Assembly (NCBI RefSeq): GCF_030159895.1
Contig: NZ_BSNI01000002.1
Span: 1,762,306-1,826,305 of the forward strand
Reading direction: 5' to 3'
Length of the DNA: 64,000 nucleotides
From: Maritalea porphyrae
GTDB taxonomy: Bacteria; Pseudomonadota; Alphaproteobacteria; Rhizobiales; Devosiaceae
Shown: one piece after another, positions 33,262-39,893 of the stretch
Layout: each line of letters begins with the position of its first letter
How positions within the stretch are numbered: the stretch's first letter is position 1
Notes under the pieces: model-generated
What the model was told of the DNA's origin: nothing
The model's input: the letters and a program-made list of their open reading frames with translations, nothing else
Databases searched by the model: none
Program-made: the position numbers and the translations under genes

Positions 33262-33706
33262 TGACTTGTCCAAATTCTAAAACGTGCAAAGAACAATAGT
33301 GCGGCGGGAGGGCGTAGATGCCCCAACTGGGCGTCTTGGTCAACAGCGAAAACGAAACTTGTAAGGCAGTGCCGCGGCGGACTAGGATTAACGCATCGAT
33401 AATGGATTTGTGAGTTCGCGCAAATTGCTAGGCAAATTTTACCGCCATTAATCATGTAGGGTGCGCCAATCGCTCAATCTGTGTTGAAAATGCAACAGCA
33501 CTCCATCAAGCGTATTTCGCATGCACATCTTCGCTTGAATGTTCGGGGCGTATCAGTAATTTGGCTAATGCGAAACCATGCATGGATTCGTTTGTCGGTC
33601 GCAAACGCGACGTCAAACACACCAAACAATAAGTGTGGTCACGTTTCGACAAACAGCCGGTAACAACCGGTCCAAAACAACTAACTGATTTTTGGAGGTC
33701 AGTATT
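33262..33706. other. 445-bp gap between the YegD-like gene and the porin gene
   Basis: It should contain the divergent promoters. I see only a short CCGGTAACAACCGG hairpin near 33658 and no credible gene. Confidence 0.5.
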
Positions 33707-34846
33707 ATGACAATTAAGAGCCTACTTCTTGGTTCAGCAGCAGTTCTTGCTCTTGGCACATCAGCACAAGCAGCAGACCCAATCGCTGTAGCACTTGACA
33801 CATGTGATCTATTGAACATCACAGGTCTTACAATTTCTTCTGAAAGCAACTGCTTGGCGTTTTCTGGCGAAGTTTCTTATGCTTGGAAATATGGTAACTA
33901 CGACCTAGACACCGTTACTGCTGGCACGCAAAACACAACTTCTGACGTTGCTTGGGAATTGACTGCAACTGCTACAGCAGACAGCGATTTCGGCCCAGCT
34001 TTCGCTACTTTCACTCTTGAAGGTGCAAGCACAGATTCAGGCGCTGGCGCGGTTGATACAATCGGCTTCGGTGACGCATATGTTGGTATCGGTGACGCTG
34101 CTTCAACAGTTATCTATGCTGGTAAAAAAGGCACAATCGGCAACACAGACGACGGCGAAACTTTGACAGCTGTTTTCTCTGTTGAGCTTAGCGATGCACT
34201 TGGCGGCAATGTTGGCGGTCACGTTATCCAATTGCAATCAAGCCTTGGTGACGGCGTAACTGCTGGTATCGGTTTTGAAGATCTTGACACAACAAACAAT
34301 GCTACTTTGGTTGGCACTGTTGCTGTTTCACAAGATTGGGGTACTGCGCACGCAACAGTAGCATTTGACGACGTTCTTTTGGGCGGCGGCGCATGGGACT
34401 TGCACACTGGCGGTTCTATTAATGCAGATAACCTAACATTCCAAGCTGCGTTCATCACGAACGAAGCTTCTGCTTGGCAAGCTGTTCTTTCTGCTTCAGC
34501 AGAATTCGACATGTTCACATTGGCAGCTGGCTTGAATCTTGAGCCTGCAAGCATGTGGGACTTCGCGATTTCTGGCGTAGCAGCAATCGACGACAACACA
34601 ACATTGACAGCCGGTTTCACAGTTAACGAAGCTTCTGCTTGGTCAGCACGTGTTGAAGGTGAGTTCGGTGTATCTGATACATTGACTGCAGACGCTGGTG
34701 TAACATTCACAAGCGCAAGCACATCTACATTCGACGCTGGTCTTACATGGGCACCAGGTGGTGGTTATGAAGCAAGCGTTGGTGTTGAAGCTGCAAGCTC
34801 AGGCGATTACAGCATCTCAACAAGCTTCGAAAAAGCTTTCGAATAG
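33707..34846 (+). CDS. Porin family outer-membrane protein
   Basis: A 379-residue exported beta-barrel. The signal peptide MTIKSLLLGSAAVLALGTSAQA is typical of rhizobial porins. A two-Cys segment (ALDTCDLL...ESNCLAFSGEVSYAW) and many strand-like alternations follow. Two tandem-like segments share NEASAW (near 34459 and 34627), suggesting duplicated beta-hairpins. ATG 33707 follows GGAGG by eight bases, and codon choice looks like a highly expressed gene. A strong terminator follows. It is likely a general diffusion pore. Confidence 0.82.
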   Translation: MTIKSLLLGSAAVLALGTSAQAADPIAVALDTCDLLNITGLTISSESNCLAFSGEVSYAWKYGNYDLDTVTAGTQNTTSDVAWELTATATADSDFGPAFATFTLEGASTDSGAGAVDTIGFGDAYVGIGDAASTVIYAGKKGTIGNTDDGETLTAVFSVELSDALGGNVGGHVIQLQSSLGDGVTAGIGFEDLDTTNNATLVGTVAVSQDWGTAHATVAFDDVLLGGGAWDLHTGGSINADNLTFQAAFITNEASAWQAVLSASAEFDMFTLAAGLNLEPASMWDFAISGVAAIDDNTTLTAGFTVNEASAWSARVEGEFGVSDTLTADAGVTFTSASTSTFDAGLTWAPGGGYEASVGVEAASSGDYSISTSFEKAFE

Positions 34847-34875
34847 TCCTAACGGTCTAATCGAACTTTCTTTGG

Positions 34876-34902
34876 AAGGCCCGGCATTTGCTGGGCCTTT
34901 CT
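34876..34902 (+). terminator. Rho-independent terminator after the porin gene
   Basis: AAGGCCCGGC (34876-34885) pairs with GCTGGGCCTT (34890-34899) around ATTT, followed by TTCTT. One G-T pair is present. Confidence 0.85.
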
Positions 34903-35145
34903 TCGTTTTGCGCCAATTGCGCTGAGCTGTAGGTCCGGTTTTGGATGCACGATCAGTTAAATTGTTAACAGCTGCGACATATTCCAAAAAAACACTGGAA
35001 CTCACAGCGTTTCTGCTTAAACTTTTGCAAAACAAATGCTTTGGTCGAACAATGTGGGCGGCGGATGACGACCAGGGCATGTTAAAGACAGTCTGTTTGT
35101 GATCGTTTTCATTCATTGCGTGCCCTTATTGGAGTAGCTTGCCAG

Positions 35146-38100
35146 ATGGGATTTCTTAGTCGCGTAAAGTGGGTCAATATTTTTGGCGCAGCAATTGTTG
35201 TTGCTGGATTGGGGGCACCTTTTGCCGTTTGGCAAAATCAGCTGAATGTCGAGAACACATTAAGAGCCCAAGTTCAGAAGGATCTATCCGACTTTGGCCA
35301 TGGCTGGGCAGACGTGGAAGTTGACGGTCGGTCGATCTCGGCCTCTGGGCTTGCCACAAGCGCTTCACAGATTGAAGATGCTCGGGAAGTGCTTGCGCGT
35401 ATCAATATCGCGAGTGAGTTCACGTTGGACGCCGAGCTTGCACCCAAACTTGAGCCATTTAGCCTAAAGCTTTCAAAAGACTCCAAAAATCGTTCCATGG
35501 TTGGCGGTATGCCAACTCAAGCGTTGATCGCACAAACCACTAAGTGGTTTGGTGATGGGGAAATCGATCTGAAACTTGCATCAGGCAGCCCAGCGCCAAA
35601 TGACTGGCGTGACGCATCTGAATTTGCCATCAGATTGCTTCAGCACTTTGATCAAGGCACTGTCGATGTGAATGGCTTGGAGGTCTCGTTTGATGGTCGA
35701 GCAAAAGATCACGAGGCGCTGCATACACTCGATGTGGTTTTCGGCGCAGGGTTTCCGGACAATTTGAAACGCGGAACGGGCAACATTATTGCACCGCTTG
35801 TTTCTCCTTATGTGCTCTCCTTGACAAAAAGTGACGAAAACATGCTTGTCGCCAATGGCAACGTTGCTGCGAAGGAAATAGCCGCCGAACTTGGAAACAA
35901 AGGCTTTGCTGCAGAAATGTTGCGTGTCAGCTCAGGTGAGCCTGAAGGGTTCTCAAATGCAATTACCGCACTGGTCGATGTGTTGTTGGCGTTAAAGACC
36001 GGGCAGGTGGAGATCTCAGATGAGACAATAAAAATCAATGGCGTCGCGCAAGCCTTTGCTGATTTTGACAAGGCGAACGCGCTGCCTGACCAATTGAATG
36101 CTTTTAAAGTGGCGCTTCAGCTAGAGCGCCCAACGGTTAAGCCATTCACACTTAAGTTTGAATTGGTTGATGATCAACTCGTCATTGCTGGCTATGTGCC
36201 TTCTGACGAAGAAGCTGACAAAATTCAAACACTTGCGGATCAAGTGAGTGTTGAAAATGTGCGGGTGGCCAATGGCGCGCCCGAAAAGTTTGGCGCAGCA
36301 ATTGATGCGGTCGCTTTGGCGCTAAGTCACTTGCAAAATGGCGCGTCCGCAGCGATTGAAGACGACAAGATCATCGTCCAAGGACAGGCAATATCACCAC
36401 AGGACTTCCTGGCTTTACAGGCGGAGTTCGGGCAGAACATTCCCGACGGCTATGATCTGGCGGTTGCCAATATCGAATTGCCAACAATTTCGCCCTATCA
36501 ATGGTCTTTGGAAAAAGAAAATGAAGGCCGCGTTCGCTTGGCGGGTTACACGCCGTCACAAGAGCTAACCAGTGAAATCTTAAATGCGATCACCGCGCCT
36601 GAGATAGTAAACGAATTGCTGCCTGCCGCTGGGCAGCCAGAAGGTTTCGCTGAAATAACGTTGGCCAGTGCTTCTGCTTCGAATTTCATGGTCGAAGGTC
36701 AGATTGGTTTCAATGAAGGCGGTTGGGCGATTGATGCGAAAACTGCCAACAAAGATCAACAAAACAGTCTCTTACAAGAGTTTTCTGACAAACAGATTCA
36801 AATTGATGGCTGGCAAAGTGCGCAGTTTACGGTGTTGCCGCCACCAGTTGCTGATCCCTATCTATTTGAAGCAAAGATTGAAAATGGCGAGCTGACTTTT
36901 GCGGGCAACGTTCGCAGCGAGGAAACTCAGCTGCTGCTCACCGGAATGGGCCAGTCAGATGTTAGTTTGGCTAGCGGCGAGCCGGAAGGCTTTGAAGAAG
37001 CGGTGAATGTTGGTATTTCGGCGCTGCAGCGTCTTGAAATAGGCAGTTTCAAATTCAACGGCGAGAATTGGGAGCTAACAGGTACAGCCGCACATCAAGA
37101 TGACGTTGATGCGATCATGGGGGACCTTGGTGAGTATGCGCTGCCAAGCAATGGATGGCAATTTGACCTAGATGCAAAGATTGTACCCATCGTTCCATAT
37201 TTGTGGTCTGCGGAAAAATCCGAAGACGGCACCTTGCTGCAATCGGGGTATGTACCAAATGAGCAGGTGTTACAACAGCTTAGCGAAACCCAAGGAAATA
37301 CAGATAATTTGAAAATCGGGTTGGGTGCTCCTGAAGGCTTTGGCGATCAAGCGGTCGCAGCACTGCAAGCTCTTGACCTACTTCAGGCGGGGCGCGCAAG
37401 CCTTTCGGGCGAAGTCTGGACGCTTCTTGGCAGTGCCAAGTCGGACGAAGCAATTGCGCAGATTACTGAGACTTTGGCGCCGTTTGGCTCCTCATTCCGG
37501 CTCGACTTGCATGTTGTTTTGCCGATTGACCAACTCACTTTGTCCGCAACTAAGACTGAGGATGGTCTATTTGTTTATGACGGGTTTTTGGCCGATGATT
37601 TGGTTTGGTCTCGAGATGGTGACAAGCTTTCACTCGTTGGTGCGCAGCCAGCAAGCCGCGAAGCTTTCCTAGCGCGTACCGAGCGTGGACTGGGCATATT
37701 GGCAATGCTGGACGAAGGCACACTGCAATTTGATGGCGAAAATTGGAAAATAGCCGGAATTGCTCCGGACAAAGCGGTTGAAACCGTGATTGGCCAAATG
37801 CTTTCAGACGATAGTGAGCCGGAATGGCAAGTTAGCCTGCAAAATGCGGCGGATATCGCTGAAGCCGAAGAGCAAGCACGACTAGAAGCGGAAGCAAAAG
37901 CCAAAGCGGAAGCCGAAGAGCAAGCGCGGCTAGAAGCGGAAGCCAAAGCTAAAGCCGAAGCTGAAGAAAAAGCGCGGCTAGAGGCGGAAGCCAAAGCGGA
38001 AGCCGAAGAAAAAGCTCGGCTAGAAGCGGAAGCAAAAGCCAAAGCGGAAGCCGAAGAGCAAGCGCGGTTAGAGGCTGAGGCAAAAGCTAAAGCGGAAGCC

Positions 38101-39057
38101 GAAGAACAGGCGCGGCTAGAGGCCGAGGCAAAAGCTAAAGCTGAAGAACAGGCACGACTAGAAGCGGAAGCAAAAGCCAAAGCGGAAGCTGAGGAACAAG
38201 CGCGGCTAGAGGCGCAAGCAAAGGCCAAGGCTGAAGCTGAAGAACAAGCACGCCTAGAAGCGGAAGCAAAAGCCAAAGCGGAAGCTGAGGAACAAGCGCG
38301 GCTAGAGGCGGAAGCAAAAGCCAAGGCTGAAGCTGATGCGCTAAAAAATGCGTTTTCTTGGACCATCAAGAAGGAAGATGGGGCGCTTTCAATGAATGGT
38401 AATACGCCAGACGCTGGCGTGCGCTATAGCTTGCAACTTGCTACCGGCATTGCTGATGTTTCGTCCCTATCCATCGGTGAGGGGGCACCAGACAGGTTCG
38501 CCGCTTCGGCTTTGTCAGCGATTGAGGCGCTTGGTCATCTGCCGCAAGGTGCAGCCCGGTTGGAAGCAGGAACGTGGATATTTGAAGGCAGCGCGCCAGA
38601 TTTTGTCGCTCGCGATCGTGCCATTGCGGCGCTTGCGCTTGCACCAAATGACTGGCAGATCGAAATCACAACACCGCCTGCTTGGGTGATTTGTGAAGAA
38701 GTCATTGTTGATTTGCTGAAACAAAGCTCAATTGAGTTCCAGAGCGGCAGCACAAATCTAAACGAGACTTCTCTTGCTGTACTGTCAGATATTGCTGCGC
38801 AACTTAGCTTGTGCCCTGAGGCCGTTGTTGAGGTTGAAGGACACACTGACGCGGACGGTCCAGCGGATGCAAATCTAACGCTTTCGGTGTTGCGTGCCGA
38901 ACGTGTGGTGGATCAATTGATCGAGCTAGGCGTTGACCCAACACGACTATTTGCGGTTGGGTATGGAGAGACTTTGCCAATTGCAACAAACGATACGCGT
39001 GCTGGCAAAAAACAGAACCGGCGCATTGTATTTGCAGTGCGCTCTGCTCTGGAGTAG
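35146..39057 (+). CDS. Giant OmpA-family protein with eight BON-like repeat units and an Ala/Glu coiled coil
   Basis: A 1303-residue envelope protein. An N-terminal hydrophobic anchor (about residues 7-24) is followed by seven repeat units of about 115 residues starting near 102, 219, 330, 448, 568, 682 and 794. Most carry a GxPEGF signature and resemble BON-like halves. Residues 905-1066 are a 16-residue-periodic Ala/Glu/Lys coiled coil, then an eighth unit (from 1067). The end is an OmpA peptidoglycan-binding domain ([33 protein letters not shown]-like KKQNRRIVF). ATG 35146 is preferred (GGAG 11 bases upstream) over 35116. It may tether the envelope to the cell wall. Two small membrane genes follow. 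Confidence 0.85.
37862..38336 (+). repeat. In-frame minisatellite, 48-bp unit (10 copies) encoding the coiled coil
   Basis: The unit encodes [16 protein letters not shown]; ten copies can be counted, two of them shortened by two codons. Copies differ by synonymous changes and a few substitutions (Q/K, E/Q). Such in-frame tandem DNA is prone to length change by slipped replication or recombination. Confidence 0.9.
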
Positions 39058-39227: not shown

Positions 39228-39893
39228 ATGAATACACCGCATCTGATTGAGATCGCGCTATTAATGCTTGCAGCATTTCTGATTGGTTGCCTGATCGGTT
39301 ATTTCTTGCGACGCATGATAAGTGCAGACGCGCCGGCGCCAGCTGCTGCCCAAAGTGAGGCGAGCACTAGCGCACCTTCCGCTGCTGCTTCAACAACGAC
39401 TGCAGAAACGTCGAAAGCAGAAGCTGCGCCAAAAGCATCCGTTGCTGAGAAGGCACCAGCGAAAACAACAGCTTCAACTTCGGCAGCCAAGAAACCGGCA
39501 GCCAAAAAAACAGCAGCAACAAAGCCAGCGGCCAAAAAGCCGGCTGCGAGTAAGCCAGCCGCAGCTAAAAAGCCCGCAGCGAAATCTGCCGCTGCAGCTA
39601 AACCAGCTGCAGCAAAGAAAGCGCCTGCGAAAAAAGCCGCAGCCGCTGGCGATGGCAAACCAGCAACGCTTTCGGGGCCAAGAGATGGCAAAAAAGATGA
39701 TTTGAAGAACATCAAGGGCATTGGGCCAAAGATTGAGGGAATCCTCAACGGCATGGGTATCTACCACTTCGATCAGGTCGCCTCTTGGGGCAGGAAAGAA
39801 GTTAAGTGGGTTGATGAAGAACTTTCGTTCAAAGGTCGCATTGACCGCGAAAAGTGGATCGCCCAAGCTAAAAAGCTAGCAAAAGACAGCTAA
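39228..39893 (+). CDS. Membrane-anchored Ala/Lys-rich protein with C-terminal helix-hairpin-helix domain
   Basis: A 221-residue protein with an N-terminal membrane helix (IEIALLMLAAFLIGCLIGYFL), then about 110 residues of low-complexity AAKKPAAK-type sequence like the tail of histone H1. It ends with a folded domain, DDLKNIKGIGPKIEGILNGMGIYHFDQVASW, containing a helix-hairpin-helix GIGPKIE. Similar C-terminal domains occur in rhizobial proteins often mislabelled as ribosomal L21. The basic tail could bind DNA or acidic polymers near the membrane. ATG 39228 has a GGAATTGG site. Function unknown. Confidence 0.8.
   Translation: MNTPHLIEIALLMLAAFLIGCLIGYFLRRMISADAPAPAAAQSEASTSAPSAAASTTTAETSKAEAAPKASVAEKAPAKTTASTSAAKKPAAKKTAATKPAAKKPAASKPAAAKKPAAKSAAAAKPAAAKKAPAKKAAAAGDGKPATLSGPRDGKKDDLKNIKGIGPKIEGILNGMGIYHFDQVASWGRKEVKWVDEELSFKGRIDREKWIAQAKKLAKDS

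Follow-up and report, generated by a model that had tools for sequence, protein, structure and literature searches.

Why should one protein carry the same small fold many times over, ahead of an OmpA-type domain and interrupted near its end by a long charged helix? The question is raised by a gene of Maritalea porphyrae that lies in a stretch of 64,000 nucleotides, which we call the window (contig NZ_BSNI01000002.1, positions 1,762,306 to 1,826,305). The gene (35146..39057, + strand) runs from an ATG at 35146 to a stop codon at 39055-39057 and encodes 1303 residues; an alternative TTG start is possible at 35116. Its open reading frame, a Pfam OmpA match, and a profile of its repeat units define a multi-unit ArfA-like BON-OmpA protein. 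From the N to the C terminus, it consists of a hydrophobic segment, a single BON fold, seven units of ~115 residues, a helix of 163 residues, an eighth unit, and an OmpA domain. By count, this gives ~17 BON-like folds, one of them degenerate. An earlier note, made from the DNA letters alone, had the order of eight units, coil, and OmpA domain right. It overlooked the N-terminal hydrophobic segment, the extra BON fold, the presence of two BON folds in each unit, the degenerate state of unit 7, and the conserved gene that follows. We read the protein, with moderate confidence, as an enlarged BON-OmpA scaffold of the ArfA/OmpATb type between the inner membrane and peptidoglycan, with a helix-hairpin-helix protein encoded next to it as its likely partner.

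Repeat units and their fold

Self-comparison of the protein, a check proposed in the earlier note, gives matches that recur at offsets near 112-118 residues and at multiples of these. To avoid circularity, the unit profile was built from 22 units of other genera, after removal of 5 of 27 rows (those from the window and from locus L092). This Maritalea-free profile finds units at residues 104-203, 220-310, 333-434, 449-547, 570-662, 684-778, and 1069-1164, with domain E values from 8.2e-22 to 6.7e-11. Unit 7 is recognized in its second half only (840-878, E 0.001), and the N-terminal BON fold is missed by this profile (E 0.74). Chance repeats were rejected: in 200 shuffles of the coil-free sequence, the best result was E 0.033 for the sequence and 0.16 for a domain.

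Model and profile together delimit the double-BON units on the + strand: unit 1 (residues 102-216; 35449..35793), unit 2 (218-329; 35797..36132), unit 3 (330-446; 36133..36483; also seen in a Pfam scan), unit 4 (447-565; 36484..36840), unit 5 (566-680; 36841..37185), unit 6 (681-792; 37186..37521), and unit 8 (1066-1182; 38341..38691). Unit 7 (793-902; 37522..37851), with its degenerate first half, was placed by the model and, for part of its second half, by the profile.

The AlphaFold2 model of residues 1-903 (25 sequences) has a mean predicted local distance difference test score (pLDDT) of 86. A structure prediction without any repeat fold had been named as an outcome that would count against the earlier note; in this model, the strand/helix pattern repeats, except in the first half of unit 7. 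Each unit runs strand-strand-helix-strand and then helix-strand-strand-helix-strand. By model, the units are thus fused pairs of BON folds with six strands and three helices, and unit 8 is predicted likewise in a second model that covers residues 790-1303 (35 sequences, pLDDT 89).

The array model was compared with solved structures using VIA-align. The N-terminal single BON fold (residues 29-99; 35230..35442, + strand) matches BonA (6v4v; Z 10.2, root-mean-square deviation (rmsd) 1.4, 70 aligned). OmpATb/ArfA is matched by a unit, with 2kgs at Z 10.0 (rmsd 4.3, 119 aligned; on residues 449-571, around unit 4) and 2l26 at Z 9.4 (rmsd 3.2, 113 aligned). The first Foldseek match of the model that holds unit 7, coil, unit 8, and OmpA is again ArfA (2l26; E 8.1e-13, 255 columns). 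The rmsd of 12.9 in this match suggests that unit 8 and the OmpA domain are positioned differently relative to each other than in ArfA. A profile of 12 relatives gave four weak matches to solved chains at E <=1, namely OsmY (0.0058) and Rv0899/ArfA (0.014, 0.015, and 0.12). The BON-like repeats and OmpA wall-binding domain proposed from the sequence are thus borne out by the Maritalea-free profile, the models, and the matches to solved structures.

Membrane segment and OmpA domain

Residues 10-28 (35173..35229, + strand) stand out in a hydropathy window and have low pLDDT. Judged from its sequence, this segment likely anchors the protein in the inner membrane. Across the family, the flanking-charge rule gives 28 N-in, 25 C-in, and 22 ties.

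The OmpA-like peptidoglycan-binding domain at the other end (38701..39051, + strand) was identified by alignment and by Pfam (PF00691 at residues 1198-1292; 69.6 bits, cut-off 27.2). The ArfA C domain is among its best solved matches. Four residues are invariant in 35/35 aligned rows: C1183, just before the domain, and C1223, D1235, and R1250 inside it. D1235 and R1250 occupy what we take to be the positions of the Asp and Arg that bind meso-diaminopimelate in OmpA domains, and the domain would be expected to bind peptidoglycan.

A conserved downstream gene

On the same strand, 170 base pairs (bp) downstream, lies the gene of the likely partner (39228..39893, +; 221 residues). By profile and by the charges around its transmembrane (TM) segment, the product has one TM segment, an Ala/Lys/Pro linker, and a C-terminal helix-hairpin-helix domain, with the C terminus predicted inside. 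The linker has a weak Pfam match to histone H1-like protein. No terminator-like site was found on the + strand between the two genes.

According to its profile, the partner is encoded directly downstream at 42/52 loci of relatives and 22/42 further named loci, counts that are partly self-selected because the profile was built from these two sets. It also stands there at 7/17 loci of the class sample, which is independent and evenly drawn; these 17 loci have room for the gene, and one more locus has not. When overlapping frames are admitted under a less strict rule, the partner is adjacent at 43, 25, and 7 loci. The helix-hairpin-helix domain occurs in 40/387 class-sample genomes, 14 of the 17 with units (own included) versus 26 of the 370 without (Fisher 8e-13, kinship ignored). 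Conservation is strong in the partner's TM sequence. In 61 of 66 distinct TM segments, Lys/Arg residues are more numerous on the C-terminal than on the N-terminal side, so the helix-hairpin-helix domain should be cytoplasmic.

Local synteny was considered as the cause of the pairing, since conservation extends to abh, slt, dapA, and smpB. In the class sample, however, any of these four is seen only at L172 and L173. The partner is adjacent without them at 6/7 class loci, which makes local synteny an inadequate explanation. The downstream gene thus likely encodes a conserved partner of the BON-OmpA protein, and the two products may form a complex.

Several points weigh against our reading, besides the self-selection and the neglect of kinship in these counts. 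The next gene does not encode the helix-hairpin-helix protein at 10/17 class loci, so the partner is not universal. In family f45, all five loci (L175, L177, L181, L182, L185) have a short TM and coiled-coil protein without the domain as the next gene. The N-terminal segment could instead be a cleaved signal peptide. The predicted template-modeling scores are 0.44 for residues 1-903 and 0.54 for residues 790-1303, meaning that the spatial arrangement of the units is not predicted. VIA-align typically gives a best Z of 7 to 8 for models without a clear match; Z 10 is good, not overwhelming. The top six Foldseek rows for the array are gelsolin chains, which we regard as spurious (TM score <0.1, rmsd >50). 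Pfam BON (PF04972) scores 20.7 bits in the window protein, below the gathering cut-off of 27. The protein is therefore BON-like by its modeled fold and not by the curated Pfam threshold, which the one-unit relative L167 exceeds (37.3 bits).

Other arrangements of the gene pair were also seen. In a Thiotrichales bin (L168, 1758-3581), the BON-OmpA gene has a TM plus helix-hairpin-helix gene immediately upstream, not downstream. In a Chromatiales bin (L135, 7309-8046), the next gene encodes a TM protein with DUF4332, a different family of the helix-hairpin-helix type in the same place.

Unit number among relatives

The family was matched in 51/61 genomes searched, own included. At least 80 loci of relatives were listed, and 23/80 were dropped as they had no unit; proteins truncated at contig ends were excluded from the unit and gap counts. 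The number of units varies widely among the 107 distinct intact proteins: 21 have one unit, 20 two, 23 three, 10 four, 8 five, 5 six, 16 seven, and 4 eight. Open-frame lengths among relatives range from 563 to 1401 residues, a 2.5-fold spread. One-unit forms come from bins labeled Robiginitomaculum, Woeseiaceae, Thiotrichales, Chromatiales, and Myxococcota. Units occur in at least 17/387 genomes of the class-wide sample, a lower bound obtained at E 1e-5 with only the best candidates scored.

Three side observations concern these genes. At L043 (4778-8014), middle units and Pro/Glu-rich spacers follow each other in turn, and the large repeats that they form are nearly identical, seemingly the result of a recent duplication. 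At L069 (4227-7438), in a draft assembly, the BON-OmpA gene is broken near the last unit, giving two frames that overlap. The genomes G213 and G421, which belong to one genus, have two BON-OmpA genes each (L178, L179, L186, L187), and every copy has its own helix-hairpin-helix gene downstream.

The spacer and alternative explanations

The charged helix between units 7 and 8 (residues 903-1065; 37852..38340, + strand) was defined from the DNA repeat, the model, and the codons. It is built of 16-residue repeats, which appear in the DNA with a 48-bp period at 37861-38336. Its 163 residues are 61 Ala, 49 Glu, 21 Lys, 10 Arg, 10 Leu, 9 Gln, 2 Asp, and 1 Ile, with 30 acid-to-base and 29 base-to-acid pairs at i+4. 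AlphaFold2 (residues 790-1303) predicts it to be helical with a low-confidence break near the middle; at 0.15 nm per residue, its length would be ~24 nm. Seven in-register copies of 16 codons were compared, leaving aside the last copy and the two of 14 codons; the synonymous divergence (dS) is about 1.07, the non-synonymous divergence (dN) is 0.016, and dN/dS is 0.015. Synonymous sites have diverged and the protein hardly at all, which shows selection on the helical pattern within the window gene. Neutral repeat expansion of the coil was rejected on the same ratio.

The position of the longest gap was recorded in 66 distinct intact relatives with at least three units. It precedes the last unit in 30 and the OmpA domain in 29, and is found elsewhere in 7. 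Gaps of at least 40 residues (n=42) were classed by composition, with at least 5% proline counted as proline-containing. There are 37 of this kind, 3 of the helix type (the window protein, L038, and L074), and 2 others; a further helical spacer (L039/L091), ended by a contig end, lies outside the 42. Within Maritalea, the spacer is helical in G000, G003, and the contig-cut G004, and is acidic and proline-containing in G001, G002, and G005. From these sequences, we read the spacer as having become a charged helix in one lineage, some Maritalea.

The earlier note had proposed that the coil gives a rod able to bridge the periplasm or determine how wide it is; as a periplasmic ruler, coil and BON array together would make one rigid rod. 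Such a ruler would suit the length of the coil, its balanced charge pairs, its codon constraint, and its predicted helicity, and the Ala/Lys/Glu-rich helix of TolA is thought to span the periplasm, according to passages of PMC7391070. The proline-containing spacers of most relatives argue against it, as does the variation in total length. A larger number of units is also not offset by a shorter gap (Spearman +0.28, p 0.024, for the 66 proteins; +0.10, p 0.52, for the 42 long gaps). As there is no negative relation between spacer length and unit number, and as spacer composition and total length both vary, a periplasmic ruler is not supported; we rejected it as a general explanation and regard it as very improbable. 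The same note had held that homologues in which the coil and unit 8 are dispensable would speak against its view of the protein. Among the relatives this is nearly the case. The codon constraint does speak for the coil being structurally important in this lineage.

The units might instead assemble as a ring or channel, an arrangement put forward for OmpATb and in line with the BonA decamer (PMC8406262, in part). The fold likeness to BonA and OmpATb agrees with this, and the lower-ranked VIA-align matches include CdsD, YscD, and PrgH, which are ring proteins of the type III secretion system. However, each chain holds many folds and relatives have one to eight units, so no fixed stoichiometry fits. 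Moreover, according to titles in the reference list of the review PMC6151718, Rv0899 is monomeric and does not form a beta-barrel. We consider a ring or pore quite unlikely. Another explanation is an array in which BON helices dock on anionic phospholipid like BON2 of DolP and hold the wall near the membrane. Binding of anionic phospholipid by DolP BON2 is described in part of PMC7806268, and repeated units would give avidity; we find this array unlikely.

Proposed role

In the reading that we prefer, an enlarged BON-OmpA scaffold, the N-terminal segment would anchor the protein in the inner membrane and the C-terminal OmpA domain would grip peptidoglycan, so that the membrane is tethered to the wall. 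The chain of BON pairs would offer a multivalent periplasmic surface on which proteins or lipids could dock. Unit 8 and OmpA would form a wall-binding head, able to move away from the array because the stretch ahead of the last BON pair serves as a spacer. The one-TM partner would sit in the membrane with its helix-hairpin-helix domain on the cytoplasmic side.

We give little credence to an extension of this reading, in which the two proteins form one transmembrane unit that reaches from peptidoglycan, by way of the BON array and the inner membrane, to a target in the cytoplasm, be it nucleic acid or a large complex. The same helix-hairpin-helix domain ends the ribosomal proteins S2 and L21 and NuoE in the window genome (L189-L191), and it also ends protein-O of the reaction center-light-harvesting 1 (RC-LH1) complex of Dinoroseobacter shibae. 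NCBIfam includes an S2 entry named 'sunset domain variant'. Mycobacterial ArfC is presumably also a 'sunset' protein, and the parallel would then be another tag carried by the same pair of hosts. If the link were real, a cytoplasmic docking system common to S2, L21, and NuoE would be connected to the wall. The conserved neighbor gives the scaffold a definite candidate for a partner and perhaps a connection to the cytoplasm. A domain whose function is called obscure by the authors of the protein-O work (PMC12079452) is here attached to an envelope system, as it is elsewhere to S2, L21, NuoE, and a photosynthetic core subunit. The one to eight units of related species make a natural series of length and valency for BON function in the envelope.

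Upstream neighborhood

A weak terminator-like hairpin (34874..34901, + strand; hairpin scan) lies between the upstream gene and the BON-OmpA gene. The region holds 12 such sites versus 8.9 (standard deviation 2.8) in shuffles, slightly above chance. The upstream gene (33692-34846, same strand) encodes an exported, beta-rich protein that is porin-like by eye only, with a Pfam DUF7223 match below the cut-off. It was dropped as an operon member: a similar gene is present at many Devosiaceae loci and at none of the order-level loci L074-L090, and the hairpin intervenes.

Comparison with known systems

The main known BON-OmpA protein is single-unit ArfA, the function of which is disputed. Its gene lies in an operon with the small downstream genes arfB and arfC, and we know of no extra N-terminal BON fold in it. 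ArfA/OmpATb (Rv0899) of Mycobacterium tuberculosis shares with the window protein a BON-type center and an OmpA-type C-terminal domain, and its membrane-anchoring N terminus has a likely counterpart in the hydrophobic segment. Its central domain has six strands and three helices (review PMC6151718, in part). ArfA is the first structural match of unit 8 and OmpA, but it has one central unit and no spacer helix, whereas the window protein has eight units and a coil. Seven of these units are full and one is partial, and a single unit is found in 21/107 distinct relatives. As the window protein lacks this single-unit character, we call it ArfA-like and not an ArfA.

BonA of A. baumannii, DolP, and OsmY share the BON fold and an envelope function; they differ in having two BON folds and no OmpA domain, and in being lipoproteins or soluble. 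Domain II of TolA is likewise an Ala/Lys/Glu helical periplasmic spacer with other end domains, and no homology is claimed. Protein-O (8yy9) resembles the partner in its N-terminal TM part, flexible linker, and C-terminal helix-hairpin-helix domain. It differs in that its TM part is a two-helix hairpin bound to the photosynthetic core and its gene lies between nuoE and nuoF.

The earlier note took the layout to be unfamiliar, which is half right. In the open-access literature, we did not find a multi-unit layout with the helix or with this partner described. The order BON+BON+OmpA itself is published as cluster 7 in Table 1 of Bryant et al. 2020 (PMC7806268), where Alphaproteobacteria form the largest column, 157 (161). 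Cluster 7 has the same domain order as the window protein; two BON domains are listed, and the parts of that paper at hand mention neither multiplication nor a spacer. It is the multiplication of units that sets the window protein apart from this published architecture.
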